In this document: positions 3,314 to 17,393 of the stretch, one piece after another
How the letters are laid out: each line of letters starts with the position of its first letter
Position numbering within the stretch: position 1 is the stretch's first letter
Source of the DNA: Anaerobutyricum hallii
GTDB taxonomy: Bacteria > Bacillota > Clostridia > Lachnospirales > Lachnospiraceae
DNA length: 64,000 nucleotides
Reading direction: 5' to 3'
NCBI RefSeq assembly: GCF_900209925.1
Contig: NZ_LT907978.1
Coordinates: forward strand, 542,001-606,000
The notes under the pieces: model-generated
What the model saw: only the letters and a program-made list of their open reading frames with translations
Database searches by the model: none
What the model was told of the DNA's origin: nothing
Made by a program: the position numbers and the translations under genes

Positions 3314-3740
3314 TTAACACTTTTTATTATCAAATGCTGGGTTGAATGCATAGAAATTCCGGCTGTCTAAGTGGTCTTGCACAATTCGGAGACTTTCACC
3401 AAATCTTTGAAAGTGTACGATTTCTCTTTCACGAAGGAATTTAATCGCAGCATAAACATCCGGGTCATCTTTTACAAGACGGAGGATATTGTCATAGGTA
3501 GTGCGTGCCTTCTGCTCCGCAGCCATATCCTCCATCAGATCTGTGATCGGGTCACCGGTAGACTGCATAGTATCTGCACTCCATGGAGTGCCACTTGCGG
3601 CGATCGGATAAATGCCGGTTGTATGGTCAACATAATAATCAGCAAATCCCTGTTCTTTAATCTGTTCTATCGTGAGATTACGGGTGAGCTGGTGAACGAT
3701 CGTGCAGACCATTTCAATATGGTTTAGTTCTTCAGTACCT
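3314..3740 (-). pseudogene. cotJC: spore coat Mn-catalase CotJC, 3' part (residues 62-202) of an interrupted gene
   Basis: Read from 3739 downward, the frame gives GTEELNHIEMVCTIVHQLTR, then the CotJC-type di-manganese catalase body (EDMAAEQKARTTYDNIL, FLREREIVHFQRFG) and the usual end (DSRNFYAFNPAFDNKKC). It has no start of its own in the right place. The missing 5' part is at 13857-14038. Both halves end in the same 6-bp core and in the same codon phase, so excision of 3741-13856 would restore a 202-codon gene of normal length. As it stands the coat protein cannot be made from this chromosome unless the element excises. Confidence 0.9.
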
Positions 3741-3752
3741 ACAGAAGCATCA
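3735..3752. other. left attachment site of the cotJC element
   Basis: Core GTACCT (3735-3740) lies between cotJC-derived TTCTTCA and the element arm ACAGAAGCATCA. The likely crossover dinucleotide is CC (3738-3739), the non-palindromic centre of the predicted attP palindrome. Confidence 0.75.
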
Positions 3753-3839
3753 GAAGAGGAGACGAAAACGAAATTGGAATACAGACAAGGCTGTGTTCAT
3801 ATATTGGGTAGAGCTACATTTGCAGGAGTATTCATTTTT

Positions 3840-4763
3840 ATGAATATGAATAAATATGAGTGTTTGAATCAGAAAAAGAAATATTGTGGAGAATCTCCTT
3901 TTTCGGGTAAGAAACGAGTTGCGGCGTATTGTCGTGTTTCGACGGAGAGAGAGGAACAGGCGCAGTCTTTTGAAAGTCAGTGCAATTTTTTTCGATGTTA
4001 TATTGAGGAGAAGAAGGAGTGGGAATTTTATAAGGTTTTTGCAGATGAGGGGATTTCGGGGACGAGTACGAAGAAAAGGGAGCAGTTTAATCGGATGATC
4101 GCGGAGGCGAGGCAGGGTAAGTTTGATTTGCTTCTTACAAAGGAGATTTCCCGTTTTGCAAGAAATACGCTTGACAGTATTTATTATACGAGGGAGCTTC
4201 GGAAGGTGGGAGTCGGGGTACTGTTTTTGAATGACGGAATCAATACGTTAGAGGGAGATGCGGAGCTGCGTCTTTCGATTATGGCATCAATTGCACAGGA
4301 AGAAAGCCGGAAAACATCGGAGAGAGTGAAATGGGGGCAAAAACGCCGGATGGAGGAAGGTGTTGTCTTTGGAAGAAGTATGCTTGGTTATGATGTGAAA
4401 AATGGGAAAATGTATGTGAATGAGGAAGGGGCTAAAGTTGTTCGGAAAATATTTTATAAATTTGTTTTAGAAAGAAAAAGTACACACACGATTGCGAAGG
4501 AGCTTTTAGAGGAAGGAATTTACCCTATGCGGAGTAAAAAATGGAGAAATACGGTTATTTTAAGAATTTTGCAGAATGAAAAGTATTGTGGGGATCTTGT
4601 GCAGAAGAAGACATTTACACCGGATTATCTTTCGCATGAGAAAAAATATAACCGGGGTGAGGAAGAGTTTGTTATTATTAAAAATCATCACGTGCCGATT
4701 ATTTCGAGAGAAATGTTTGAAAAAGCGGAAAAGATTTTTGAGGAAAAACAAAAGAAGAGGTAA
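3840..4763 (+). CDS. serine recombinase (large-serine-recombinase type, short C-terminus)
   Basis: 307 aa from ATG 3840 (AGGAG at 3824-3828). Longer in-frame extension upstream would run into the att site and lacks a ribosome site. The resolvase domain shows VAAYCRVSTEREEQ (nucleophile Ser34), DEGISGTS and ISRFARNTLD. The recombinase (PF07508) domain follows (about 170-285: MLGYDVKNGKMYVNEEG, RILQNEKYCGDLVQKKTF). It ends just after IFEEKQKKR, where relatives continue into a zinc ribbon and coiled coil. Either it is truncated, or it is a minimal version. Relatives such as SpoIVCA excise skin in the mother cell. Its place beside the left att site makes it the likely excisase/integrase of this element. 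Confidence 0.85.
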   Translation: MNMNKYECLNQKKKYCGESPFSGKKRVAAYCRVSTEREEQAQSFESQCNFFRCYIEEKKEWEFYKVFADEGISGTSTKKREQFNRMIAEARQGKFDLLLTKEISRFARNTLDSIYYTRELRKVGVGVLFLNDGINTLEGDAELRLSIMASIAQEESRKTSERVKWGQKRRMEEGVVFGRSMLGYDVKNGKMYVNEEGAKVVRKIFYKFVLERKSTHTIAKELLEEGIYPMRSKKWRNTVILRILQNEKYCGDLVQKKTFTPDYLSHEKKYNRGEEEFVIIKNHHVPIISREMFEKAEKIFEEKQKKR

Positions 4764-4834
4764 ACCATATCCTACAAATCCGTTAAAAAATATGCTACTA
4801 TTGATAATAAGAAATAGTCGAGGGAGGTACACAT

Positions 4835-6421
4835 ATGGGGAGTTATATGAATCCAGGAAGTTTTTCATTTCGTGGGAGTCTGCGTTCTAAAATATATGTA
4901 GACAAAAGCGAATTGATTGCAAAGATAAATGAAGTTCTTTACACTGAGCAGAAGTATATTTGTGTAAGCCGTCCGAGAAGATTTGGTAAGTCGATGGCAG
5001 CAAATATGCTTGCAGCATATTATGATCGAAGTGAGAATACAGAAGAATTATTTCAGAATCTTATGATTAGCAAAGATAGTTCATATAGGGAAAATCTAAA
5101 TCAATATGATGTGATTAAGATTAATATGCAGGAATTTTTAAGCCTGTCGGGGACGATAGAAGAAATGCTGCAAATGCTTAGAGATTATCTGCTTTCAGAT
5201 TTTAAAGAAGCTTATCATGAAGTACATTTTCGAGATGAAAAAAATCTAATTCAGGTTATGAAAGATGTTTTTTCTTATACAAAATGTCCGTTTGTAATTC
5301 TGATTGATGAGTGGGACTGCCTGTTTCGGGAATATAAACAGGACAAAGAAGCCCAGAAGAAATATTTGGATTTTTTACGGGTCTGGCTGAAAGATAAAGA
5401 TTATGTAGCACTTGCATACATGACGGGAATTCTGCCGATTAAAAAATATGGGTCTCACTCTGCACTAAATATGTTTACAGAATATTCGATGACAAATCCG
5501 CGCGAAATGGCGGAGTATTTTGGGTTCACAGAAGAGGAAGTAGAGAAATTGTGTGAAAGATTCGACCGCAATTTTGAGGAAACTCATACCTGGTACGATG
5601 GATATGAACTGGTAAAAATAGATGGGAAAGAGAAAATCTATTATTCCATGTATAGTCCTAAATCAGTAGTGGATGCCATGTTGAGTGGTGTGTTTGATAA
5701 CTACTGGAATCAGACAGAAACCTATGAAGCACTAAAAGCATATATAAAGTTAAATTTTGACGGACTAAAAGATGCAGTGATTCGTATGCTTGCAGGAGAA
5801 AGAGTTCAGATTAATACGGGGACATTTTCCAATGATATGACGAGTTTTCAGGGAAAAGATGATGTATTAACTCTGCTGATTCATTTAGGATATTTAAGTT
5901 ATCACTGGCCGGACAAAACAGTTACAATTCCAAACAAAGAAGTATCTCAGGAATATATCAATGCAATCAGTACGATGGACTGGTCTGAGGTGACAGCATC
6001 CATTGAAGATTCCAGAATGTTGTTAGAAGCTCTTTGGAATATGGATGGAAAAGCTGTGGCAGAAGGAATTGACAAAGCACATCAAGAGATTTCCATTTTG
6101 CAATATAACAACGAAAATTCATTAAGCTGTACTATACATCTTGCATTTTATTTTGCGAGAGAATATTACACGATAGTCAGAGAACTTCCAACAGGAAAAG
6201 GATTTGCAGATGTTTGCTTTATTCCAAGAAAAATGCATCTCGATAAACCGGCTGTAATTATAGAATTAAAATGGGATAAAAGTGCAAAAGGAGCAATCAG
6301 CCAGATTAAGGAAAAACATTATGTAGAGGCTTTGAAAGATTATCAGGGAAAGTTATTGCTAGCAGGAATTAATTATGATAAAGACACAAAAAAGCATACC
6401 TGTATGATAGAAGAATTCTGA
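4835..6421 (+). CDS. AAA-ATPase-like protein with C-terminal PD-(D/E)XK nuclease domain
   Basis: 528 aa, ATG 4835 after GGGAGG. The N-terminal half is of the AAA-ATPase-like type (PF09820): YICVSRPRRFGKSM is the Walker A variant (about 35-50) and FVILIDEWDCLF the Walker B. The C-terminal part carries a PDDEXK_9-like core: GFADVCFIP ... AVIIELKWDK ... AISQIKEKHYVEAL. Such proteins are abundant, multi-copy and often recently moved in Bacteroides and gut Firmicutes; their role (defence, mobile-element related) is unsettled. It lies inside the cotJC element, 71 bp after the recombinase, but has its own ribosome site. Confidence 0.8.
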   Translation: MGSYMNPGSFSFRGSLRSKIYVDKSELIAKINEVLYTEQKYICVSRPRRFGKSMAANMLAAYYDRSENTEELFQNLMISKDSSYRENLNQYDVIKINMQEFLSLSGTIEEMLQMLRDYLLSDFKEAYHEVHFRDEKNLIQVMKDVFSYTKCPFVILIDEWDCLFREYKQDKEAQKKYLDFLRVWLKDKDYVALAYMTGILPIKKYGSHSALNMFTEYSMTNPREMAEYFGFTEEEVEKLCERFDRNFEETHTWYDGYELVKIDGKEKIYYSMYSPKSVVDAMLSGVFDNYWNQTETYEALKAYIKLNFDGLKDAVIRMLAGERVQINTGTFSNDMTSFQGKDDVLTLLIHLGYLSYHWPDKTVTIPNKEVSQEYINAISTMDWSEVTASIEDSRMLLEALWNMDGKAVAEGIDKAHQEISILQYNNENSLSCTIHLAFYFAREYYTIVRELPTGKGFADVCFIPRKMHLDKPAVIIELKWDKSAKGAISQIKEKHYVEALKDYQGKLLLAGINYDKDTKKHTCMIEEF

Positions 6422-6462
6422 TTTTGGGCTGTTGCTTTACATACGGTGTCTCCCTATCTGTG

Positions 6463-6501
6463 TTAACCCGAAATTTACAATAATTTTACAATAATTCCAC
6501 T
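6463..6501 (+). promoter_or_regulatory. PhoP-box-like array upstream of the phosphatase
   Basis: Four hexamers spaced exactly 11 bp apart: TTAACC (6463), TTTACA (6474), TTTACA (6485) and TCCACT (6496), each separated by 5 bases. Three fit the Gram-positive PHO-box form TT(A/C/T)A(C/T)A with 5-bp spacing; the last is poor. The next gene is a secreted phosphatase, so control by PhoPR under phosphate limitation is a strong guess. Confidence 0.6.
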
Positions 6502-6598
6502 TTATCTTGATAGAAGAGCATACAAAAACTTGCTATCTTATATAACGTAGATTCTAAAGTTTTCAACAAAAGAATGGCGAAAAGGAAAAGAGGTTATT

Positions 6599-8578
6599 AT
6601 GAGAAAGCTTATGTGGAAAAAAGCTGCAGCAGCAGCTATGACTGCAACAATTTTAGCAACAAGTGCAACAGTTCTTCAAGCGGCTGCCCCACCGGACGGA
6701 TATACGAATGCACAAGATACCGTAGAGGCTTACGGTGGAGCCTACAGCAATTGGATGACAAAGTGGAACAGTACAATCAGTAAGGATAGAGAGCAGATTT
6801 CTCTTTCTCCGGGAAGTGACAACAGTTCATTGAATTTTGCATGGTATACAAAGAAAGCTTCTGGAATTCAGAAGTTAAAGATCGCAGAGAATAAGAGACT
6901 TACGAATGCAAAAGTATATGAGGCAAAGCAGACAGAGGCAGTGACAGACAAAGATGATACAGCATATGTATCAAATAAAGTAACTGCAACAGATTTAAAG
7001 GCTAACACAACCTATTATTACAGTTATCAGAAAGACGGACAGTGGACAGCACCAGAAAAATATACAACAGATAATGGCAGTAAGTTCAGCTTTATCTTTG
7101 TAGGTGATCCACAGATTGGTTCTTCAAATGAATTAAAAGGACAGGATACGGCCGAGTTTTATAATGCACAGTCTGCAGCAGTAGCAAATGATGCATTTAA
7201 CTGGAATACAACTTTAAGCCAGGCGATGGAAAAGACAAATAATAAAGCAAGTTTTGTTCTTTCTTCTGGTGACCAGATTCAGAGTACAAAGAAAAAGTCT
7301 CCGAATAAGGCAGCGTGGGGAAGTGAAATCGAATACAGTGGATATTTAAGCCCGGATGTATTAAAGAATCTTCCGGTAGCAACTACTGTAGGTAATCATG
7401 ATGCAGACAATGCAAACTACACCTATCATTTCAATACAGCAAATGCCAGTGAACTTGGTTCAAATAAAACCGTTGGCGGTGACTATTGGTTTAAACATGA
7501 TAATGCTTTATTTATTATGTTAAATACACAGGACACCAATGTAGAAGAACATAGACAGTTTATCGAGCAGACGGTAGCAGCAAATAAAGACTGCAAGTGG
7601 AGAATCGTTACACTCCATCAGGATATTTATGGTTCTGCGGAACATTCTAATGAACCGGAGATCACAAACTTAAGATATCAGCTTGCACCAATTTTCGAAG
7701 ATAACAAAGTAGATGTTGTTCTTACCGGACATGACCATGCTTATTCTCGCACACAGATTTTAAAGGGTGGACATAAAACAACAGAGTATTCTAATAGTGA
7801 TTTCAAATCTATGTTAAACAAAGATATGGATGCCGGAGAGAATCCAGATACGGTATACACAGCAAAAGAAAATATTAAAGCAGACACGACAGATCCATCT
7901 GAAAAAGCATATCTTGATTACTTGAATCAGGTAATGGATAAAGATGCCATTCAGCAGGTAACAAAGAAGGGTACAACCGTATTTAATCCAACTGGTATTC
8001 TTTACATGACAGCAGGTTCTTCCTCAGGAAGTAAATACTATGACCTTGTTCCAAGACAGCAGAGCTACATCGCAAACCGCTGGCAGCAGGATGTCCCTAC
8101 TTATTCGGTTATTGATATTACAGATACAACATTTACGATCAATACATACCGTACAGACACAGAAGAAAAGATTGACGAGACATTCAGTATTGCAAAAGTA
8201 AACGAATCTGAAAATAAAAATCAGACAGAAGATAAGAAACAGCCGGCTACAGAAAAGAAAGATACAACCAAACCAATTGAAACAGCAATTGCACCAAAGA
8301 AAGCAGTGCTTAAGAAAGTAAAAGCAACTGGTAAAAAGAAAGTAAAAATAATTGTTAAAAAGACTTCTGAAAAAATCAATGGATATGAGGTGATTTTATC
8401 TACGAAGAAGAACTTTAAGAAAGCAAAGAAGGTGACAACAAAGGAAAATGTTGTTATAGTGAAAAAATTAAAAGCTGGTAAAAAATATTTCGTAAAAGTA
8501 CGTGCCTTCAAGAAGGTGGGTAATAAAAAGATTTACGGAAAATATAGTACAGTGAAAAAAGTTATTGTAAAGAAGTAG
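6599..8578 (+). CDS. secreted purple-acid-phosphatase-like metallophosphoesterase
   Basis: 659 aa. Residues 1-28 are a signal peptide (positive RKLMWKK, hydrophobic core, cut near LQA-AA). Residues about 50-160 look like the N-terminal fibronectin-like domain of purple acid phosphatases. The metallophosphoesterase core follows with GDPQIG, SSGDQ, VGNHD, TLHQD and GHDHAY, covering the expected metal ligands. The last 110 residues are a very lysine-rich fibronectin-like domain (KAGKKYFVKVRAF), possibly for surface binding. The enzyme should release phosphate from organic esters outside the cell. The PhoP-like box upstream fits. Start ATG 6599 follows AAAAGAGG. It lies within the cotJC element. 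Confidence 0.88.
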   Translation: MRKLMWKKAAAAAMTATILATSATVLQAAAPPDGYTNAQDTVEAYGGAYSNWMTKWNSTISKDREQISLSPGSDNSSLNFAWYTKKASGIQKLKIAENKRLTNAKVYEAKQTEAVTDKDDTAYVSNKVTATDLKANTTYYYSYQKDGQWTAPEKYTTDNGSKFSFIFVGDPQIGSSNELKGQDTAEFYNAQSAAVANDAFNWNTTLSQAMEKTNNKASFVLSSGDQIQSTKKKSPNKAAWGSEIEYSGYLSPDVLKNLPVATTVGNHDADNANYTYHFNTANASELGSNKTVGGDYWFKHDNALFIMLNTQDTNVEEHRQFIEQTVAANKDCKWRIVTLHQDIYGSAEHSNEPEITNLRYQLAPIFEDNKVDVVLTGHDHAYSRTQILKGGHKTTEYSNSDFKSMLNKDMDAGENPDTVYTAKENIKADTTDPSEKAYLDYLNQVMDKDAIQQVTKKGTTVFNPTGILYMTAGSSSGSKYYDLVPRQQSYIANRWQQDVPTYSVIDITDTTFTINTYRTDTEEKIDETFSIAKVNESENKNQTEDKKQPATEKKDTTKPIETAIAPKKAVLKKVKATGKKKVKIIVKKTSEKINGYEVILSTKKNFKKAKKVTTKENVVIVKKLKAGKKYFVKVRAFKKVGNKKIYGKYSTVKKVIVKK

Positions 8579-8670
8579 CTATAAAGAAGTAGCTGCAAAG
8601 AAGTAATAAAACAGCAACAGTGAAAAAGTAACAGTAAAAAAATAACAGCAAAGAAATAACAGGAGATCTT

Positions 8671-9831
8671 ATGTCAGAAGAATTAAAGAAAACTGACATA
8701 AAAAAGATTGCAGGAAGGGGATGTCTGGTGGTAGCGGGCATCCTGTTTCTGCTCTTTTTATGTCGATATAATCAGATAAAAAAAGAATCTTTATATGATA
8801 CAGAAGGAAGAACATTTGCTAAGGCAGAGGTAACGGATATTTTGCAGGATAATGAGACGAAAGATGGGATTTATATTGGCAGGCAGCTTGTAAAATTAAA
8901 AGTTACTTCGGGAAAATGGAAGGGAAAAACGATGGAAGCAGACAGTTCTTCTGCCTATCTGTATGGAGCACATTGCAAAAAAGGAAGCAGGGTAATTGCA
9001 CTAATCAGTGAGGCAAATGGTTCTTTTTCAGCTTCTGTCTACAGCGTGGACAGAGAGATGCAGGTGTATTTGATTATAGCCATTTTTCTACTGACATTAA
9101 TTATTATCGGAGGAAAGCAGGGACTTGCTTCTGTAATTGGACTTGCATTTACGGCGATATGTATTTTATTTTTATTTTTACCGATGATATATAAAGGACA
9201 TTCTCCGATTCTGGCAGCGGTGATTGTTGTTATCCTGACGACAATTGTAACGATGTATCTTGTAGGCGGGGCTTCAGGAAAGACAGCAGTAGCCATTGCC
9301 GGAACTGTTTTAGGAGTACTGATCTCTGCACTGTTTGCTTTGATATTTTGTAAAATGACAGATATAAGCGGGTATAATGTATCAGCGATCGAAAGCCTGA
9401 TCTATGTAAGAGATCAGACAGGAATAGAAGTAGGACAGCTTTTATTTGCAGGTATTCTTATTGCTTCTTTAGGTGCTGTCATGGATGTAGCAATGTCGAT
9501 CTCATCAACGATAGAAGAAATATCTTATCAAAATCCTGAACTGGGGATAAAAGGCTTATTTTTTTCTGGAATGCGTGTCGGAAAAGATATGATGGGAACG
9601 ATGTCAAATACATTAATTCTTGCCTTTGCAGGCGGTTCGATTAATACACTGGTATTTATCTATGCTTATAATTATGAATATTTGCAGATGATCAATATGT
9701 TTGATATCGGAATCGAAATCATTCAGGGAGTTGCTTCAAGTATGGGAGTCATCCTTACTGTACCGATCTGCTCATTTTTGTCAGCATGTATACAAGGAAA
9801 ACAAAAGAAAACCTTGACAAAAGAAAAATAG
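8671..9831 (+). CDS. YibE/F-like multi-spanning membrane protein
   Basis: 386 aa, ATG 8671 after CAGGAG. One N-terminal membrane segment (about 18-35) is followed by an outside domain of about 90 residues and then seven or so membrane helices (VYLIIAIFLLTLIIIGG onward). The pattern and the conserved stretch SLGAVMDVAMSISSTIEEI identify the YibE/F family. Its biochemical role is unknown. It lies 92 bp after the phosphatase; the spacer is made of decaying repeats of the AAAGAAGTAGC type, so co-transcription is possible. Confidence 0.8.
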   Translation: MSEELKKTDIKKIAGRGCLVVAGILFLLFLCRYNQIKKESLYDTEGRTFAKAEVTDILQDNETKDGIYIGRQLVKLKVTSGKWKGKTMEADSSSAYLYGAHCKKGSRVIALISEANGSFSASVYSVDREMQVYLIIAIFLLTLIIIGGKQGLASVIGLAFTAICILFLFLPMIYKGHSPILAAVIVVILTTIVTMYLVGGASGKTAVAIAGTVLGVLISALFALIFCKMTDISGYNVSAIESLIYVRDQTGIEVGQLLFAGILIASLGAVMDVAMSISSTIEEISYQNPELGIKGLFFSGMRVGKDMMGTMSNTLILAFAGGSINTLVFIYAYNYEYLQMINMFDIGIEIIQGVASSMGVILTVPICSFLSACIQGKQKKTLTKEK

Positions 9832-9880
9832 TAATATATTATGAACCCTAGTAAGGAAATGGAAATTGAGGAGCAATATT

Positions 9881-10006
9881 ATGATGATGATGTGTGTCAT
9901 GCCAATGAATTACATAACTTGTAGCTGTGAAGATTCACAGATGGATATGTCTTCTGTGAGGGAGACTGGCTTGCCTGCACATAATGATCAGAATGCGTGT
10001 TTATAG
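9881..10006 (+). CDS. possible 41-residue Met/Cys-rich small protein
   Basis: Frame beginning with four Met codons (MMMMCVMPMNYITCSCEDSQ) after GAGGAGC at 9868-9874, ending TAG at 10006. It has four Cys and no clear membrane helix. The good ribosome site supports translation; no family is recognised. It could be a chance frame upstream of the metNIQ leader. Confidence 0.35.
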   Translation: MMMMCVMPMNYITCSCEDSQMDMSSVRETGLPAHNDQNACL

Positions 10007-10108
10007 ATTTTCAGAAGATTTGTTTGAAAAGAGCTTGAGAAGGATGGATTACCAGAGCTCTTATTTCGGCAGAGATTATAATTTTCATGACACCAGAGAT
10101 GAGTTTCA

Positions 10109-10134
10109 AGCAGGTAGTGATACCTGCTTTTTTC
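10109..10134 (+). terminator. intrinsic terminator upstream of metN
   Basis: 8-bp stem AGCAGGTA/TACCTGCT with loop GTGA and a T-rich tail (TTTTTTCTTT). It is 85 bp before metN. It may end the small-protein transcript or be a leader attenuator; no S-box or T-box consensus is visible around it. Confidence 0.6.
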
Positions 10135-10218
10135 TTTCATACCAAAAAGAAACTTAATGGCAGGTAAATACCGACCGCAAGCTGAAACAATTTTCATAAA
10201 AACCAGGGAGGAAGAATA

Positions 10219-11259
10219 ATGGCAGAGATTGTAATAGAGAATCTCTATAAGTCTTTTGATACAAAAGATGGAACAGTAGAGGCTCTTAAAAATGTTAATT
10301 TAAGCATCGAGTCCGGAGATATTTACGGTATTATCGGTATGTCCGGCGCTGGAAAGAGTACATTAGTACGATGTATTAACTTTCTTGAAGTTCCGACAAA
10401 GGGACGGGTTCTTATTAATGGAAAGTCTTTAGGAGATTATACTTCAAGAGAACTTAGAAAGCAGAGAGAAGACATCGGAATGATTTTTCAGCATTTCAAC
10501 TTACTGATGCAGAAAAATGTTTTGGAAAATGTTTGTTTTCCGTTGTATATTCAGGGAAAGTCCAAGAAAGATGCTAAAAAGCGTGCAAAGGAGCTTTTGG
10601 ATATCGTTGGACTTGGGGATAGAACTGGAGCATTTCCGGCACAGTTGTCCGGTGGACAAAAGCAGAGAGTTGCGATTGCGAGAGCATTGGCATCTGATCC
10701 AAAGATTCTTCTTTGTGATGAGGCAACCAGCGCACTTGACCCACAGACAACATCTTCTATTTTAGCATTGTTAAAGGATATCAATGAACGTTTTAATATC
10801 ACGATCGTAATTATTACCCATCAGATGTCTGTTGTTCGTGAAATATGTTCTCATGTAGCGATTGTAAAAGGCGGCGAAGTAGCAGAACAGGGAACAGTAG
10901 AAGAGATTTTTACACATCCCAAGACTGCAGTTGCAAGAGAACTCCTTAAGAATGATGTTGGTGACGGAGAAGAAAAGAACAGAAAGACAACAAGTGGCAA
11001 GGAACTGATTCAGAGTGGAGAAAAGATTCGAATCGTCTTTTCCGAGAATTCAGCATTTGAGCCAGTCATTGCCAATCTGATTCTTAATTTTAATGAGCCG
11101 GTAAATATTTTAAAGGCAGATACAAAGAATGTCCGCGGTGTGGCAAAAGGAGAAATGATTCTTGAATTTGCGCCGGACTGTACAAAAAATAAAGAAATGA
11201 AACAGTATCTTTTAGACAGAGGATTAGATTTAGAGGAGGTGAATGAGAATGTGGACTAA
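10219..11259 (+). CDS. metN: methionine ABC transporter ATP-binding protein MetN
   Basis: 346 aa. Walker A GMSGAGKST (about 39-47), Q-loop IFQHFN, signature LSGGQKQRVAIARA, Walker B ILLCDEATSALD and H-loop IITHQM are all present. The C-terminal 80 residues (RIVFSENSAFEPVIANLIL onward) form the NIL ligand-binding domain, which marks the MetN subfamily and lets methionine inhibit transport. Start ATG 10219 after GGGAGGAAG. It overlaps metI. It powers uptake of D/L-methionine or related compounds. Confidence 0.95.
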   Translation: MAEIVIENLYKSFDTKDGTVEALKNVNLSIESGDIYGIIGMSGAGKSTLVRCINFLEVPTKGRVLINGKSLGDYTSRELRKQREDIGMIFQHFNLLMQKNVLENVCFPLYIQGKSKKDAKKRAKELLDIVGLGDRTGAFPAQLSGGQKQRVAIARALASDPKILLCDEATSALDPQTTSSILALLKDINERFNITIVIITHQMSVVREICSHVAIVKGGEVAEQGTVEEIFTHPKTAVARELLKNDVGDGEEKNRKTTSGKELIQSGEKIRIVFSENSAFEPVIANLILNFNEPVNILKADTKNVRGVAKGEMILEFAPDCTKNKEMKQYLLDRGLDLEEVNENVD

Positions 11260-11908
11260 AGAAATAACAGATATGATCGTCAGTGGTGTATGGGCAACAC
11301 TTTACATGACACTTGCTTCTACAATCTTAGGATATGTATTTGGACTTCCGATGGGTGTCCTTTTAGCAATCACAGATAAAGAAGGATTAACACCAAATGC
11401 AATCGTATATAAAATATTAGATGTCATCGCAAATATCGTTCGAAGTATCCCGTTCCTAATCCTTCTTATTTTGCTTATTCCATTTACAAAGCTGATCGTT
11501 GGACAAAGTTATGGTTCTACAGCAACTGTTGTACCACTTGTGATCGCAGCAATTCCATTTATTGCTCGAATGGTGGAATCTTCTATTAAAGAAGTAGATC
11601 CGGGTGTTATTGAGGCAGCTCGTTCTATGGGAGCAAGCAATATGCAGATCGTTATGAAGGTTCTCTTAGTAGAAGCCAGAACATCCTTACTTACCGGAGC
11701 AACAATCGCAATCGGAACAATTCTTGGTTATTCCGCAATGGCAGGTTGTGTCGGCGGTGGTGGACTCGGTGATATTGCCATCCGTTACGGATACTATCGT
11801 TATCAGACAAGTATTATGATCGTTACGGTTGTACTGCTTGTTGTACTTGTACAGATTTTCCAGAGTATTGGTATGTTCCTTGCAGCCAAACTTGATAAGA
11901 GAAAATAA
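11249..11908 (+). CDS. metI: methionine ABC transporter permease MetI
   Basis: 219 aa with five or so membrane helices and the EAA-type loop EAARSMGASNMQIVMKVLLVEA that contacts MetN. ATG 11249 (MWTKEITDM) lies 8 bases after AGGAGGT; the earlier in-frame ATG at 11243 is too close to it. It overlaps the metN end by 11 bases, so the two are translationally coupled. The length is typical for MetI. Confidence 0.95.
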   Translation: MWTKEITDMIVSGVWATLYMTLASTILGYVFGLPMGVLLAITDKEGLTPNAIVYKILDVIANIVRSIPFLILLILLIPFTKLIVGQSYGSTATVVPLVIAAIPFIARMVESSIKEVDPGVIEAARSMGASNMQIVMKVLLVEARTSLLTGATIAIGTILGYSAMAGCVGGGGLGDIAIRYGYYRYQTSIMIVTVVLLVVLVQIFQSIGMFLAAKLDKRK

Positions 11909-11950
11909 AATTCAGATCAATTTCAGATCAATTATAGTTATCAACTATTT

Positions 11951-12082
11951 GGAGTCAGCAAATTCAAGTCGAGCAGCCGCGAGACTTGGCGCGTGATTCT
12001 GGTCAGCGTAAGCTGACATATTCTTTACAGAATCACTGCGCATCCTCGCGGAGCGTTTATCTCAGTCGAAGATTGGACTCCC
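11951..12082. repeat. palindromic repeat type C, copy 1
   Basis: Nested hairpin: CCGCGAG/CTCGCGG outside, GCGCGTGATTCTG/CAGAATCACTGCGC in the middle, GTCAGC/GCTGAC inside, bounded by GGAGTC and GACTCC. A near-identical inverted copy is at 57043-57165. It lies between metI and metQ. Confidence 0.85.
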
Positions 12083-12148
12083 ACTGAGACAAATTTGCTG
12101 TCACTCACCACCTGAAAGAGGTAGGAGTCTTCTCGACTGAGATAAAAG
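12083..12148. repeat. short palindromic repeat type E, copy 1
   Basis: Contains CACCACCTGAAAGAGGT and TCTTCTCGACTGAGATA. The same unit occurs inverted at 15058-15115. It shares the TCGACT/CTGAGATA ends with type C, as if one frame carried two different cores. Confidence 0.75.
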
Positions 12149-12182
12149 ATTCTCTGAATAGTTAGAATAAATAAAAAATGCA

Positions 12183-12222
12183 CTCAGGAGTCTTCTTACA
12201 AATCATGCACAAAAGACTCCGA
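12183..12222 (+). promoter_or_regulatory. hairpin just upstream of metQ
   Basis: Arms GAGTCTT (12188-12194) and AAGACTC (12213-12219) around an 18-base loop, with extra CTC/GAG pairs outside. It is 30 bp before metQ. It may protect or separate the metQ message, which often needs more protein than metNI. Confidence 0.35.
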
Positions 12223-12254
12223 GAGCACATAAAAAAGAAAGAGAGGAAACAAAC

Positions 12255-13094
12255 ATGAAGAAATTTGGAGCATTTTTATTAGCAGGTGTACTTGCAATCG
12301 GAACATTAACCGGATGTGGAAGTACAGATAAGAAGGCAGAAGGTTCTACAGGAAGTACAGACAGCAAAGTCATTAAAGTTGCAGCTTCTGCAACTCCACA
12401 CGCAGAAATCTTAGAAGAAGCAAAACCGCTTCTCGAAAAAGAAGGATATGACTTAGAGGTAACTGTATTTGATGATTATGTACAGCCAAACGAAGTTGTA
12501 GACAGTGGAGATTTTGATGCAAACTACTTCCAGCATGCGCCTTACATGGAACAGTTCAATAAAGAAAAAGGAACAAAATTAGTAGATGCAGGCGATATTC
12601 ACTACGAGCCATTCGGAATCTATCCAGGAACAAAGAAAAGCCTTGATGAAATCGCAGATGGCGACGAAATCGCTGTACCAAACGATACAACAAACGAGGC
12701 AAGAGCATTACTTCTTCTTCAGGACAATGGTATTATCAAGTTAAAAGACGGTGCAGGACTCACAGCAACTGTAAATGACATCGCAGAAAATCCACACAAT
12801 ATTAAGATTGTTGAGTTAGAAGCTGCACAGGTAGCACGTGTAACAGGCGAGACAGCTTTCGTTGTATTAAATGGAAACTATGCCCTTCAGGCTGGATACT
12901 CTGTAAAAAAAGATGCCCTCGCTTATGAAGCAGCAGATTCAGAAGCAGCAAAAACTTATGTAAATATCATCGCAGTAAAAGATGGAAATCAGGACAACGA
13001 TGCGATCAAAGCATTAGTAAAAGTTCTTAAATCTGATGACATCAAGAAATTCATTGATGAAAAATACGATGGTGCAGTAATTGCATTTGAATAA
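12255..13094 (+). CDS. metQ: methionine-binding lipoprotein MetQ
   Basis: 279 aa. Lipoprotein signal with lipobox LTGC (Cys21), followed by a Gly/Ser/Lys linker and the NlpA/MetQ fold (KVAASATPHAEILEEAKPLL, YFQHAPYMEQFN, NDTTNEARALLLLQ). It captures methionine outside the membrane and hands it to MetI. A 346-bp gap filled with repeats separates it from metI, unusual for this operon. ATG 12255 follows GAGAGGAAA. A type A hairpin repeat starts 19 bp after its stop. Confidence 0.95.
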   Translation: MKKFGAFLLAGVLAIGTLTGCGSTDKKAEGSTGSTDSKVIKVAASATPHAEILEEAKPLLEKEGYDLEVTVFDDYVQPNEVVDSGDFDANYFQHAPYMEQFNKEKGTKLVDAGDIHYEPFGIYPGTKKSLDEIADGDEIAVPNDTTNEARALLLLQDNGIIKLKDGAGLTATVNDIAENPHNIKIVELEAAQVARVTGETAFVVLNGNYALQAGYSVKKDALAYEAADSEAAKTYVNIIAVKDGNQDNDAIKALVKVLKSDDIKKFIDEKYDGAVIAFE

Positions 13095-13112
13095 TAATTT
13101 GTAGATTTCGTA

Positions 13113-13237
13113 TAGACGAAAAAAGAAAAAATACCATATCCCATCTGCTCTGTAGTCGCTGTGTTTAAGATGCTTATCCGCATCTTAAACACGCTCCGAA
13201 GCCGCATCTGGGATATGGTATTTTTTCTTTTTTCTGA
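13113..13237. repeat. palindromic repeat type A, copy 1
   Basis: Outer arms run AAAAAATACCATATCCCA / TGGGATATGGTATTTTTT. The core has the hairpin GTGTTTAAGATG/CATCTTAAACAC. It begins 19 bp after the metQ stop and is flanked by AATTTGTAGATTTCG. Confidence 0.9.
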
Positions 13238-13254
13238 CTATTCCAAACCCACAG

Positions 13255-13690
13255 TTGGCTCCAGAAGGAAATTAGTATTTTTGTTTGAGAGAGAGGGGAA
13301 TGCTCAGAAGGCTATGGTTTTTATTTGGAATAAAAATTTCCAAAAGGGGATGTTTTCTCACTGAATTGTAGTAAATCTTCTAAAGAAAAAAGAATGGTTA
13401 TAAGTTAGATTTTTTTACTATAGTTTTCGTACAATTCAGCATAAAAATTTATTTCAGCGGCTATCTGGTTTTGATAACAAATAGCAAATTGGTAATTTTT
13501 GTTAGAAAGAGAAGGGATTCTCTAGAAGATTATGAGAGTTAACCAGAGAAAAAATTCTCTAGAAGGTTATGGATTCTCGGGAAATTAAAACCTAAGAGAT
13601 TGACACATTTCTTCTGGAAGTCTCCATCTGAATAAAAAGCGTAGACTTTTGGAGAAGCCCCATTCTCGCCAACTGTAGATTTAGAATAGC
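13255..13690. repeat. degenerate type D and G repeat material
   Basis: No gene. Fragments match the type D ends (ACAATTCAGC at 13431 and CAGCGGCTATCTGG) and the type G unit (TTATGAGAGTTAACCAGAG at 13528). The central D hairpin has been deleted. Stacked repeat debris between two type A copies. Confidence 0.65.
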
Positions 13691-13815
13691 CAGAAAAAAG
13701 AAAAAAATAATACATCCCAGATGCGGCTTCGGAGCGTGTTTAAGATGCGAACGAGCATCTTAAACACAGCGACTACAGAGCAGATGGGATGTATTATTTT
13801 TTTCTTTTTTCGTCT
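13691..13815. repeat. palindromic repeat type A, copy 2 (inverted)
   Basis: Arms AATAATACATCCCA / TGGGATGTATTATT differ from copy 1 at matching positions on both sides, so pairing is kept. It ends CGTCTACACGAAATCTACAA, only 26 bp from the right att site of the cotJC element, and is inside that element. Confidence 0.9.
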
Positions 13816-14038
13816 ACACGAAATCTACAAATTCGTATTTTGATGCTTCTGTACCTATATCTGTGAGGATGCCCATAACAGGACGGTAAGGCATGGCAAA
13901 TCGTTGGGAGAGATAACGCATCGCAGCTCCAGTCTCTCCATCAGGGCCCCCAAATTGCGAGATGATTGCCTTGGCCATGGCCGCATCAGTTCTTTTTATA
14001 TTAATTGGATACTCTAATCTTTTTTCATAATTCCACAT
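13814..14038 (-). pseudogene. cotJC: spore coat Mn-catalase CotJC, 5' part (residues 1-61) of an interrupted gene
   Basis: Starts ATG 14038, 4 bases after the cotJB stop, with GGAGGG overlapping the cotJB end. MWNYEKRLEYPINIK, then QFGGPDGETGAAMRYLSQRF and MPYRPVMGILTDIGT, are the canonical CotJC N-terminus. At the core AGGTAC the frame runs into the element and stops after EASKYEFVDFV. The rest of the gene is at 3314-3740. In B. subtilis CotJC is a coat component made in the mother cell and related to manganese catalases. Confidence 0.92.
13841..13856. other. right attachment site of the cotJC element
   Basis: Element arm TGATGCTTCT (13841-13850) followed by core GTACCT (13851-13856) and cotJC sequence ATATCTGTGAGG. 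It pairs with the site at 3735. The outer halves of both sites join to code ...LTDIGTEELN... without loss or gain of a base. Confidence 0.75.
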
Positions 14039-14042
14039 AAAC

Positions 14043-14408
14043 CTATCCCTCCATTTCCCATGGCCATGGTTTATTGGCCCATGCCCAGAATTCTGTGTCT
14101 TTTGGAACTGTATCAAGATTCAGAGGTGAGAAGCGGCTGCTATATTCTTTGATGGCCTGTTTTCTTGCATTTTTATAATATTCAAAATATTCTAAAGCTT
14201 CTTTGCTTTCGGGATGTGTATCAAGAAACATGGCACAGTCTAGTGCAGCAAAGCTTACAAGATCAATATAACGCTTGAGTTTTTTTTGCTCGGCGCAGCA
14301 GCTGCAGCCGTTGTTATAATTGCGGTTATGATTGGAATTAGAATTCATGTTTCGATTATAATTACAGTTTAAATTGCAGTTTTCAGAAGAATTTATATTT
14401 TGCATCAT
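14043..14408 (-). CDS. cotJB: spore coat protein CotJB
   Basis: 121 aa from ATG 14408 (MMQNINSSENCNLN), 8 bases after GGAGG; the GTG at 14417 abuts the ribosome site and is unlikely. The N-terminal 45 residues are an Asn-rich, Cys-containing tail. The CotJB core follows (LKRYIDLVSFAALDCAMFLD ... HPESKEALEYFEYY ... ARKQAIKEYSSRF ... FWAWANKPWPWE). The start overlaps the cotJA stop (ATGA). It is required with CotJA and CotJC for assembly into the inner coat in Bacillus. Confidence 0.93.
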   Translation of the reverse strand: MMQNINSSENCNLNCNYNRNMNSNSNHNRNYNNGCSCCAEQKKLKRYIDLVSFAALDCAMFLDTHPESKEALEYFEYYKNARKQAIKEYSSRFSPLNLDTVPKDTEFWAWANKPWPWEMEG

Positions 14409-14605
14409 TTTCGGCACCTCCTTCCAAGAAAAGCCAGATCAAGTTCCTGAAAGATTGTGCCAGCACATAATGCGTTTTCTGGTTTATATATATTCTGCCA
14501 TTTCTGCCATGGTACATAAGCCATAGCAAGAGGCAGGGAATCAAGTTTTACAGTTTCCTTTTCCTGTGTACATGAACAGGAAGAGTGATAAGAATTATCC
14601 ATCAT
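14405..14605 (-). CDS. cotJA: spore coat-associated protein CotJA
   Basis: 66 aa from ATG 14605, 8 bases after AAGGAG (14614-14619). Conserved features: LAMAYVPWQKWQNIY and ALCAGTIFQELDLAFLGRRC, typical of CotJA. The longer frame from 14635 starts before the ribosome site and is disfavoured. First gene of the cotJABC operon, which in Bacillus depends on the mother-cell factor SigE. Confidence 0.9.
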   Translation of the reverse strand: MMDNSYHSSCSCTQEKETVKLDSLPLAMAYVPWQKWQNIYKPENALCAGTIFQELDLAFLGRRCRK

Positions 14606-15018
14606 AAAAGCATCTCCTTGTTTTGTAAGATTCATAACTATTCAGAGTAATACAGATTCTAAACTATTATGGAATCTGTATTTAAATTTGTGGATGGATT
14701 TATTTTGAAAAGTTAGTCTGAACAGTTACTATAATTTATATATATGACAAGGAATAGAATGTGTCCGTAAGATATGCATTTCAGACTGTATACAAATTCA
14801 ATAAATAATATGTTATAAAAATACAAGAAATCCGGATTAGCAAATGTAATATTTTATGGATATTGTTATAAGAGTATCAGAAAGTGATTCAAAAGTTTGG
14901 AGAGTGTACAAATTGACAGAAATATGCGGGAGGGAGTATAATATAAAAATAACTGTTTTATTTCAGAATATGTTAGTTCCCCAAAATAACATATTAGAAA
15001 TCCCCAAAACAGTGAGAG
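14606..15018. promoter_or_regulatory. divergent control region between cotJA and the metal GTPase genes
   Basis: Holds an inverted repeat ACAGATTC/GAATCTGT at 14652-14659 and 14672-14679, about 50 bp before cotJA, perhaps an operator or leader hairpin. I could not place a convincing SigE promoter by eye. The 85-codon frame from 14856 lacks a ribosome site and is not called. Confidence 0.4.
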
Positions 15019-15115: not shown

Positions 15116-15215
15116 AAAAAGAAATTGCACACGCCTTGCATTTTTGTAATCTGAACTGTATAATATAAGATTGAATATAAATTGCTTTATTTTTTGTAGA
15201 GAAAGGAATGGAACA

Positions 15216-16337
15216 ATGACAAAGATAGATATTATTTCTGGTTTTCTTGGAGCCGGAAAAACAACTTTAATTAAAAAACTTATTGAAGAAGGACTGAAGG
15301 GTCAGAAGGTTGTTCTGATCGAGAACGAATTTGGTGAGATTGGTATTGACGGTGGATTTTTAAAAGAGTCTGGTATTCAGATTAATGAAATGAATTCCGG
15401 ATGTATTTGCTGTTCTTTAGTTGGTGATTTTAATACAGCTTTAAAAGATGTGTTAGAACAGTATACACCGGATCGTATTATCATCGAACCTTCAGGAGTT
15501 GGCAAGCTTTCTGATGTTATGAAAGCAGTACAAAAAGTTGTGGATGCAGAAGAGAATGTTGTATTAAACAGTCATATCACTGTTGCGGATGCGATGAGAG
15601 CGAAAATGTATCTGAAAAACTTTGGAGAATTTTATCGTAATCAGGTTGAGTTTGCCAGCGCAGTAATCTTAAGCCGTTCACAGAATGTAAAAGAAGATAA
15701 GTTAGAGAAGGCAGTAGCGCTTCTTCGTGATATTAATGGAAAATGTCCGATTGTGACAACTCCTTGGGAAGAGCTTAGTGGGGCACAGCTTCTTGAAGTA
15801 ATGGAAGGTGAGAATGATTTTGCTAAAGAATTGATGGAGGCAGCACAGGTTTGTCCTGAATGTGGACATCATCATGAACATGGTGAAGAATGTCACGAAC
15901 ATCATCACGACCACGATCATGAATGTCACGAGCATCATCACGACCATGATCATGAATGCCACGAGCATCATCACGACCACGACCATGAATGTCATGAACA
16001 TCATCATGACCATGACCATGATTGCTGTGGTCATGATCATCACCACCATCATGCGGATGAAGTATTTACAAGCTGGGGAAAAGAAACTCCGAAGAAGTAT
16101 ACAGAAGAAGGAATTCGAGCAATTCTTGATACATTATCTAAAGAAGACTCCAATGAGTATGGAATTATCTTAAGAGCAAAGGGTATTGTACCGGATGAAA
16201 ACGGTAAATGGATTCATTTTGATCTTGTACCAGGTGAAGATGAAGTACGTTACGGTTCAGCAGAATATACTGGACGAATTTGCGTTATTGGCTCAAAACT
16301 TAATGAAGACAAGCTGGCAGAGCTTTTTGGTTTATAA
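15216..16337 (+). CDS. COG0523 (CobW/YeiR-like) GTPase with His-rich metal-binding insert
   Basis: 373 aa from ATG 15216 (GAAAGGA 15201). G1 GFLGAGKTT (10-18), metal motif CICC (about 60-65), G3-like EPSGVG, and a C-terminal CobW_C domain (YGIILRAKGIVP). The G4 site reads SRSQNVKED instead of NKxD. Between the domains is a His/Cys/Asp/Glu-rich segment: ECPGHHHEHGEE-type start, then four exact 11-residue repeats ECHEHHHDHDH and HDCCGHDHHHHH. COG0523 proteins act as metal (Zn, Co, Ni, Fe) chaperones or insertases; the insert would store or sense metal. It is followed by a second GTPase gene 78 bp on. Confidence 0.88.
   Translation: MTKIDIISGFLGAGKTTLIKKLIEEGLKGQKVVLIENEFGEIGIDGGFLKESGIQINEMNSGCICCSLVGDFNTALKDVLEQYTPDRIIIEPSGVGKLSDVMKAVQKVVDAEENVVLNSHITVADAMRAKMYLKNFGEFYRNQVEFASAVILSRSQNVKEDKLEKAVALLRDINGKCPIVTTPWEELSGAQLLEVMEGENDFAKELMEAAQVCPECGHHHEHGEECHEHHHDHDHECHEHHHDHDHECHEHHHDHDHECHEHHHDHDHDCCGHDHHHHHADEVFTSWGKETPKKYTEEGIRAILDTLSKEDSNEYGIILRAKGIVPDENGKWIHFDLVPGEDEVRYGSAEYTGRICVIGSKLNEDKLAELFGL
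15888..16019 (+). repeat. four 33-bp tandem repeats coding ECHEHHHDHDH
   Basis: Four in-frame units; the protein repeat is perfect while the DNA differs at silent sites (CAC/CAT, GAC/GAT). This implies selection on the protein. The number of units could vary among strains by slippage. Confidence 0.9.
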
Positions 16338-16415
16338 AAATGTATCCTGGGAATTTTTGATAAAAACAGGGACGAAAGATTTTAAGAATACACAAAAGCC
16401 CACAGGAGGAGATGT

Positions 16416-17393
16416 ATGTTAAGTAGAAAGAAGAAGCTGGAAATCCCGGTATATTTATTTATGGGATTTTTAGAGGCCGGAAAGACAACCTTTATTCAGG
16501 AAACGCTGGAAGAAGATTATTTTAACGATGGAGAGAGAACACTTTTATTCGCCTGTGAAGAGGGAATGGAAGAATATGATGAAGAACTGTTAAAAAGAAC
16601 GAATACAACACTTGTCTATGTAGAAGATCAGGAAGATTTTAATACAGAATTTCTTACCAGTAAACTTTTGGAGCACTATCCGGACCGCGTGATTATAGAA
16701 TATAACGGTATGTGGACCATTGATCATATGGTAGAAGCGTTAGAAGGAACTCCACTTATGATATTCCAGACAATTGTAAGTGCTAATGCGGAAACATTTG
16801 ATTTATATATGAACAATATGCGTTCCCTTGCTGTAGAAATGTTTAAGATGGCAGAATTGGTTATTATTAACCGCTGTACGAAGGCAACACCAAGAGCAAC
16901 TTACAGAAGAAGCATTAAAGCAGTAAACCGTAGTGTTCAGGTTGTTTTTGATTCAATGGTTCCAGGTGAAGACATGGGAGAAGAAGAGGAAGAGTTACCA
17001 TTTGATATCAGCGGAGATGAGATTCATCTTGAAGATGATGATTATGGAGTATGGTTTATTGATGCCATGGAACGTCCTGAACTCTATGACGGAAAGACTA
17101 TGGTAATGAAAACAAGAGTATTTAAAGCAATGCGTATGCCAAAGGGAACTTTCGTTCCGGGTCGACATGCGATGACATGTTGTGCTGATGATATTCAGTT
17201 CATTGGATATCTTTGCCATACAAACCATGCGAAGTCCTCTACAATTAAATCTCTTAAGAATAAGATGTGGATTATACTTACCGCAGAAGTAAAAGTAGAA
17301 TATAACGAAGAATATAAAGATAAAGGACCGGTACTATACGCCAAACGAATTGAAGCAGCAGAACCGCCAGAAGAAGAATTAGTATATTTTTAA
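16416..17393 (+). CDS. COG0523-type GTPase fused to a TIGR03943/DUF1980-like domain
   Basis: 325 aa, ATG 16416 after AGGAGGAG. P-loop GFLEAGKTT has Glu where most relatives have Gly. The CxCC metal motif is replaced by CEEGMEEYDEEL, an acidic run. The C-terminal part (ELYDGKTMVMKTRVFKA ... FVPGRHAMTCCADDIQFIGY) matches the C-terminal domain of the YcgQ/TIGR03943 family, which sits with GTPases and permeases in zinc-linked gene sets. A role in metal delivery together with the preceding GTPase is likely. The stop codon lies in the sequence TAAATACTAATTTG that begins a type B repeat. Confidence 0.75.
   Translation: MLSRKKKLEIPVYLFMGFLEAGKTTFIQETLEEDYFNDGERTLLFACEEGMEEYDEELLKRTNTTLVYVEDQEDFNTEFLTSKLLEHYPDRVIIEYNGMWTIDHMVEALEGTPLMIFQTIVSANAETFDLYMNNMRSLAVEMFKMAELVIINRCTKATPRATYRRSIKAVNRSVQVVFDSMVPGEDMGEEEEELPFDISGDEIHLEDDDYGVWFIDAMERPELYDGKTMVMKTRVFKAMRMPKGTFVPGRHAMTCCADDIQFIGYLCHTNHAKSSTIKSLKNKMWIILTAEVKVEYNEEYKDKGPVLYAKRIEAAEPPEEELVYF

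Follow-up and report, generated by a model that had tools for sequence, protein, structure and literature searches.

A 64,000-nucleotide stretch of the Anaerobutyricum hallii genome (contig NZ_LT907978.1, positions 542,001 to 606,000; called the window throughout) raises the question of why cotJC, the gene for a manganese catalase-like spore coat protein, lies there in two parts with 10,116 bp of other DNA between them. The analysis indicates that the segment is probably a sporulation-gene intervening element, which would be excised from cotJC in the mother cell. The observations behind this conclusion are the anatomy of the locus, the joining of the gene in silico, the recurrence of the arrangement, the match between recombinase clades and insertion sites, and purifying selection on both gene halves and on the recombinase.

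The element interrupts a sporulation gene, since the split cotJC belongs to a cotJ operon in which cotJA and cotJB, as the first-pass annotation had stated, are intact and coupled, with their expected domain matches and overlapping reading frames (Table 1). That annotation had given the crossover core as GTACCT; its positions (3735-3740 and 13851-13856) were correct and its length was not, the word shared by the two cotJC parts being the 7-bp repeat GTACCTA. When the two parts were joined in silico, precise loss at this repeat kept the frame and gave a stop-free CotJC of 202 residues containing LTDIGTEELNHIEM, so the claim that excision would restore the gene exactly was upheld. GTACCTA occurs four times in the window, and the repeat by itself is therefore weak evidence; the split is not attributed to chance because of the palindromic attP, the serine recombinase gene at the left end of the element, and the same split in relatives. 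The predicted junction of the excised circle, TGATGCTTCTGTA-CC-TACAGAAGCATCA, is a perfect 13+13-bp palindrome around a non-palindromic central CC and is symmetrical at 18 of 25 positions; the rejoined chromosomal sequence reaches 8 of 25. A symmetrical attP and a weakly symmetrical attB are the typical asymmetry of serine integrase sites. No other manganese catalase match was found at E ≤ 0.001 in the host genome, a single contig of 3,515,670 bp.

The recombinase gene starts 105 bp inside the left end, where it had been placed earlier, and its product matches the Resolvase catalytic domain (7.1e-33) and PF07508 (6.6e-23), after which the protein ends. A sigma-E-like promoter precedes it (Table 1), and matches to sigma-E (372.6 bits) and SpoIIID (136.3 bits) are present in the host genome, whose SpoIVA is intact. 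Scored with a generic sigma-E matrix, 17 of 49 recombinase upstream regions (51 recombinases minus two without a start call) reached p ≤ 0.05 against first-order random sequences. In a second scan, scores of at least 12 were found for 10/50 recombinases and 5/361 other open reading frames (ORFs) (Fisher 5.6e-7), and scores of at least 10 for 13/50 and 14/361, respectively; a rank test gave p 3e-4. These significances are inflated by the relatedness of the sequences, which are not independent. The comparison ORFs include unchecked frames, and the window's gene is not among the 30 recombinases listed, probably because an earlier start was taken.

The genus set comprised 24 Anaerobutyricum genomes including that of the window (G000), 14 of which had a CotJC match. 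In 12 of these 14 the gene is split or partial (G000, G001, G002, G003, G006, G007, G008, G009, G011, G013, G022 and G023), and the uninterrupted cotJC of related strains, for which the first-pass annotation had suggested a comparison, is the sole form in two congeners, G005 and G010. Nine of the 12 are cut at the window's codon (the exceptions are G006, G007 and G013), and all eight genomes other than the window's that are cut there carry a homologous recombinase, 55-94% identical (G009 with the 5' side only). The G003 element, whose ends are on two contigs, shares the codon, a recombinase 94% identical to the window's, and MetN, MetI and MetQ; A. hallii DSM 3353 contig L131 is the same sequence as part of G003.

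Interruption of cotJC extends far beyond the genus. In the host family a CotJC match was found in 244 of 397 genomes, in 78 of which the matches were weak only: G000, G003 and 76 others, which were re-searched. Two of the 76 had a full-length gene (G243 and G375), 68 had a piece boundary at site A, B or C (profile positions ~30, ~63-68 and ~147-152, respectively), and 51 had both sides of one site. With G000 and G003 included, the family total is 70/244 genomes (29%) with a boundary at one of these sites, none of them with a full-length match, and 53/244 (22%) with both sides; one-sided cases may be contig ends, and extra split copies beside an intact gene are outside the count. A sample of the class gave a CotJC match in 193 of 291 genomes. 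Forty weak-match genomes were re-searched, leaving aside the window's genome, G455, G510, G516, G588, G606, G626, G664 and G682, and 39 of the 40 had a boundary at one of the three sites, with both sides seen in 28; these counts rest on the boundaries of matching pieces, and at least four cases (G483, G605, G659 and G678) are not insertions, their pieces overlapping or lying less than ~0.2 kb apart, so that the class count is at most 35 among the 40.

General gene breakage as the cause of the splits was ruled out by a control gene longer than cotJC, SpoIVA: among the 80 genomes with a match to it, three (G065, G120 and G128) have an incomplete copy, one of them at contig ends. An assembly artefact was also ruled out, as the window's genome is one contig and the pieces lie apart in the one-contig genomes G413, G305, G551, G607 and G454 as well. 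In G454 (C1:2541492-2698788) the two parts are on one strand, 157 kb apart. Locus L125 (G083:C68) has two equal-scoring cotJC 3' parts in tandem, 3.5 kb apart, with the 5' part on another contig.

Starting from the recombinase, 561 relatives of the window's enzyme were confirmed in species genomes, and 76 of the best 80 had a cotJC piece in their flank (the four without were L179, L181, L194 and L197). A scan of IMG/VR gave 32 relatives, eight of them with CotJC pieces.

Mapped onto the 202-residue CotJC, the cut positions are residues 28-32 (site A), 60-67 (site B, where B1 and B2 are two adjacent crossover points), 133-136 (site C) and ~176 (site D). Site D was found in G013, G296 and G371, where 3.2-6.9 kb separates the C-terminal tail from the preceding part of the gene; a D-type recombinase adjoins the tail in G013 and G296, G371 showing only two frames cut by the ends of the fetched stretch, and G285 diverges at the D position with no tail found in the 19 kb fetched. 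The motifs at the four sites, GGPDGE, TEELxHxE, EDMAAEQKAR and REIVHFQRFGE, are taken here, from the catalase literature, to be manganese-ligand motifs, and CotJC aligns across them with the solved manganese catalases 6j42, 4r42 and also 1jku.

A maximum-likelihood tree of 53 recombinases, from which frames below 270 aa were left out, comprised 21 B1, 11 A, 10 B2, 9 C and 2 D enzymes, and each site label lies on one side of a single fully supported branch. The five labels require four changes, which is the minimum; shuffled labels required 28.1 on average, and none of 200 shuffles was as low. The join of the C and D clades was flagged by the tree program as a possible long-branch effect. Two-element genes (G282, G134, G082 and G217) have one recombinase from each matching clade. 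G551, a one-contig genome, has three collinear cotJC pieces, and G574 has four pieces on three contigs, a count that implies three elements. The 28 elements contained within one locus measure 1.6 to 16.9 kb; larger ones, of ~39 kb in G161 and ~42 kb in G246, carry phage head and tail genes, and a tape-measure protein was found in the G413 element, in a scan of ten ORFs.

Locus L109 (G265) has three recombinase frames, one of them short, side by side at the 3' end of one cotJC element and a B1 enzyme at the other, 5' end; the tree did not include the two additional recombinases near the 3' end, which fell on the B1 branch in an earlier one. At L061 and L063 (G023 and G022) the B1 element and the cotJC part after it are ~98% identical, versus 76-87% for the upstream cotJ flank, a pattern that reflects either recent element transfer or a chimeric contig (contamination of G022 is 7%).

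Rejoining was carried out for 48 piece pairs, the pair L128/L129 (G217, middle piece missing) being outside this set, and 42 gave a frame that stays open over 185 residues or more. For four of the 42 (L062, L082, L087 and L107/L108) the last part is foreign, owing to a second element at site D. The six pairs without such a frame (L063, L089, L096, L124/L096, L119/L118 and L121/L122) lack an end piece or are followed by a second element. Because the join searches keep codon register by construction, the open frame alone is no independent proof; an in-register repeat is, and one of at least 4 bp was found in 29 of the 48 pairs. At site C the repeat was GCAGCAGA in the first junction search, and scoring of the joined protein gives shorter repeats there. 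The attP was more symmetrical than the attB in 35 of the 48 pairs, with three ties, and most site C elements deviate from this pattern.

The ratios of nonsynonymous to synonymous divergence (dN/dS) point to purifying selection on both cotJC halves and on the recombinase. For the joined gene, window and G003 differ with a synonymous divergence (dS) of 1.43 and a dN/dS of 0.026 (5' part 0.037, 3' part 0.021), and G001, G002 and G023 among themselves with a dS of 0.70-0.97 and a dN/dS of 0.036-0.052, with 0 to 0.062 for the separate parts; no cotJC part exceeded 0.065 (5' part, G003/G001). The short recombinases gave 0.063 between window and G003 and 0.093-0.126 among G001, G002, G022 and G023. 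In the G001/G002/G023 trio the recombinase dS (1.04-1.10) is at least that of cotJC, which indicates that the element was resident while cotJC was conserved.

On its domain content, the window's enzyme is a truncated derivative of a large serine recombinase clade and not a full member. The domain scan found no zinc ribbon (PF13408) in it or in L059, L060, L061 and L064, and detected one in L073, L077, L072, L092 and L085, with L096 just below the cut-off; L085, of the site C clade, has a DUF4368 C-terminal domain, unlike the scanned A and B clade proteins. Loss of everything past PF07508 is seen on separate B1 branches, {window, G003} and {G001, G002, G022, G023}, and a recombinase of 327 aa in a Blautia metagenome-assembled genome (L206) may be a third case. 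Of 86 recombinase ORFs in the named loci, contig-end ORFs excluded, three fall below 350 aa, namely those of L131 (A. hallii) and L206 and, in L173, a frame from a broken gene. No remnant of the missing domain was found in the short-recombinase elements beyond 22-31 residues at the domain edge. Known directionality factors work via the C-terminal part of the recombinase; because this part is lost and the remaining sequence is conserved, excision may be controlled by transcription alone. The small-ORF clusters listed consisted of frames lying over the recombinase gene, either antisense or in another frame, and of a single shared ORF of the cargo.

In the mechanism proposed here, the serine recombinase at the left end would recombine the two GTACCTA sites, so that a circle bearing a palindromic attP is freed and cotJC is restored without error. 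The sigma-E-like promoter would place this event in the mother cell, the compartment in which cotJABC is used, and the spore line would retain the split gene with its cargo. Excision itself, its sporulation and mother-cell specificity, and the activity of the short recombinase are predictions from the sequence. Across Clostridia, cotJC is a standing target, with separate recombinase clades owning attB sites at manganese-ligand codons. A wider and distinctly more tentative reading combines these points: cotJC of Clostridia might be a DNA-spliced gene in which four manganese-ligand motifs hold the attB sites of separate recombinase lineages and up to three elements are removed per mother cell for the sake of one enzyme, and in Anaerobutyricum the recombinase might twice have shed its zinc ribbon and everything beyond it, leaving an enzyme that is driven by sigma-E, only excises and has no need of a directionality factor.

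Excision might instead serve transfer only, with no tie to sporulation, if these were ordinary integrative elements for which cotJC is a safe landing site since the coat catalase is dispensable. Some cotJC elements are indeed prophages with portal, terminase, head and tail proteins, and the near identity of the G022 and G023 elements beside a more divergent flank suggests recent transfer; such an account is unlikely, however, given purifying selection on both halves while split, the open frame in 42 of 48 rejoined pairs and the enrichment of sigma-E-like promoters. If insertion had killed the gene, the halves would be fossils, as the lack of an intact copy in the host and a frame-broken cotJC without an element in G060 might suggest, but dN/dS values of 0.026-0.052 across synonymous divergences of 0.7-1.4 and the openness of both sides at the exact register make this highly improbable. 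Random switching of cotJC in the population, that is, phase variation and not removal timed by development, is extremely improbable: sigma-E-like promoters stand ahead of the recombinases, and a coat gene is not known to have any use in vegetative cells. Such switching has a precedent in yin, which PMC10747680 reports to be excised from yabG in a fraction of the population at every time point.

Several results weigh against removal of an intervening element in the mother cell. An intact CotJC paralogue lies beside the split copy in G001, G002, G006 and G022, and no recombinase was recognised in the fetched stretches of G006 and G007 at the threshold used. Lacking the zinc ribbon that its relatives have, the window's recombinase may be dead or integration-defective, and among the listed clusters of small ORFs over the single-locus elements no directionality factor was recognised. 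Apart from the generic matrix and the inflated significance mentioned above, many recombinases (for example L073 and L077) have no good sigma-E match, and the region upstream of cotJA scores 8.4 by the same matrix. Between window and G003 the recombinase dS (0.675) is lower than that of cotJC, so that the element may have been transferred after the split and part of the constraint on cotJC may predate it; the G001/G002/G023 trio is free of this weakness. Many wider pairs yielded no ratio, their silent sites being saturated. The first-pass annotation had called the segment a developmental intervening element with cargo kept in the spore line. Its identity as an intervening element is supported by the in-register join, the attP anatomy, the resident recombinase, the alleles and elements of congeners, selection and the sigma-E-like promoter; timing, restriction to the mother cell and benefit of the cargo remain conjectural.

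The cargo comprises six genes (Table 1), and Pfam and NCBIfam scans of these ORFs found no phage domain, PHROGs not having been applied to the window. The guanine-plus-cytosine content of the element is 0.374, versus 0.376 and 0.384 in the flanks. The host genome has ten further recombinase frames, 543-667 aa long, one of which may act in trans as a helper of the window's recombinase. A long hairpin-like sequence was seen by eye in two copies of opposite direction at the right end of the element (13120-13225 and 13708-13805), the second adjoining the att site. Also by eye, a transposase-like frame of TnpB/OrfB type, broken into two adjoining frames, was noted at 170-1274, and two CobW-like GTPase genes, one with a long histidine-rich repeat, at 15171-17393, upstream of the cotJ operon on the opposite strand.

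Table 1. Coordinates of the split cotJC, its element and neighbouring genes in the window
Feature	Position	Strand	Basis or remark
3' part of cotJC (Mn catalase-like spore coat protein)	3314..3734	-	PF05067 9.6e-25, profile 65-197; in-frame with 5' part
cotJC-intervening element, 10,116 bp	3735..13850	.	joining in silico
Left crossover repeat GTACCTA	3735..3741	.	central CC at 3738-3739
Inner attP half-arm TACAGAAGCATCA	3740..3752	.	exact inverted match of 13841-13853
Sigma-E-like promoter GAATACA-14-CATATATT, 34 nt ahead of recombinase ATG	3777..3805	+	matrix scan, generic consensus
Serine recombinase, 307 aa, Resolvase and Recombinase domains, without zinc ribbon	3840..4763	+	domain scan; dN/dS 0.063 versus G003
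AAA-ATPase_like / PDDEXK_9 protein, cargo	4835..6421	+	domain scan
Purple acid phosphatase / calcineurin-like phosphoesterase with fn3 domain, cargo	6599..8578	+	domain scan
YibE/F-like membrane protein, cargo	8671..9831	+	domain scan
MetN-like ABC ATPase with NIL domain, cargo	10219..11259	+	Pfam, NCBIfam; under MetN equivalog cut-off
MetI-type permease, cargo	11243..11908	+	Pfam, NCBIfam
MetQ/NlpA-like lipoprotein, cargo	12255..13094	+	Pfam, NCBIfam
Inner attP half-arm TGATGCTTCTGTA	13841..13853	.	
Right crossover repeat GTACCTA	13851..13857	.	
5' part of cotJC including start codon	13851..14038	-	
cotJB, intact	14043..14417	-	PF12652 (CotJB domain) 1.7e-24
cotJA, intact, overlaps cotJB	14405..14635	-	PF11007 (CotJA domain) 3.8e-19

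No report of an interrupted cotJC was among the papers listed in searches of the open-licence PMC literature (subscription papers and preprints were outside this scope). The interrupted genes named in the available text of PMC10747680 are sigK, spsM, spoVFB, gerE and yabG, and 'cotJ' does not occur in PMC10747680 or PMC5595907. In C. difficile R20291 the CotJC homologue CDR20291_1465 is described in PMC11222575 as lying downstream of and adjacent to attR of phi027, unsplit. On this reading, cotJC is a new target gene for intervening elements, with multiple sites. As far as the sources cited here extend, the rebuilding of sporulation genes has comprised a handful of cases, each with one element per gene. 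If the present reading is correct, one coat-catalase gene would be a class-wide docking place for elements with metabolic or phage cargo, with dozens of parallel cases among gut bacteria, and the ride would cost little because the elements would exit only in the doomed mother cell. DNA engineering would then gain five site-dedicated recombinase clades, and the naturally occurring enzymes that lack the zinc-ribbon part would allow a direct test of its role in direction control. For annotation, a split cotJC is not necessarily a pseudogene or an assembly error.

Among known systems, skin in sigK of B. subtilis and C. difficile is alike in having its own serine recombinase and a split mother-cell gene that excision restores exactly, according to the part of PMC5025042 available. 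It differs in that its target is a sigma factor gene, whereas that of the window is a coat enzyme gene, and the window's recombinase is without the zinc-ribbon part; for the C. difficile directionality factor CD1234, no candidate counterpart was recognised among the small-ORF clusters listed, no direct comparison with CD1234 having been made. Helper-embedded phage-inducible chromosomal islands in prophage late genes, as presented in the available part of PMC10111431, are similar in that one integrase clade repeatedly hits genes that need timed rebuilding, and differ in being a phage-satellite system in which sporulation has no part. The gin element in gerE of B. cereus ATCC10987 has non-phage cargo, like the window's element, and a recombinase that is reported as sporulation-specific. 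PMC5595907 describes the vfbin and B. subtilis skin recombinases in the same way and reports the enzymes of SPbeta and C. difficile skin as constitutive. Whereas gin has three recombinases and GirX, the window's element has a single recombinase, and its relatives use several sites within one gene. SPbeta in spsM, vfbin in spoVFB and yin in yabG are likewise recombinase-bearing mobile DNA in sporulation genes, each described in the accessible text of PMC10747680 as a single element in a single gene, whereas the cotJC elements occur at four motifs and in many families, with piece counts pointing to up to three per gene.

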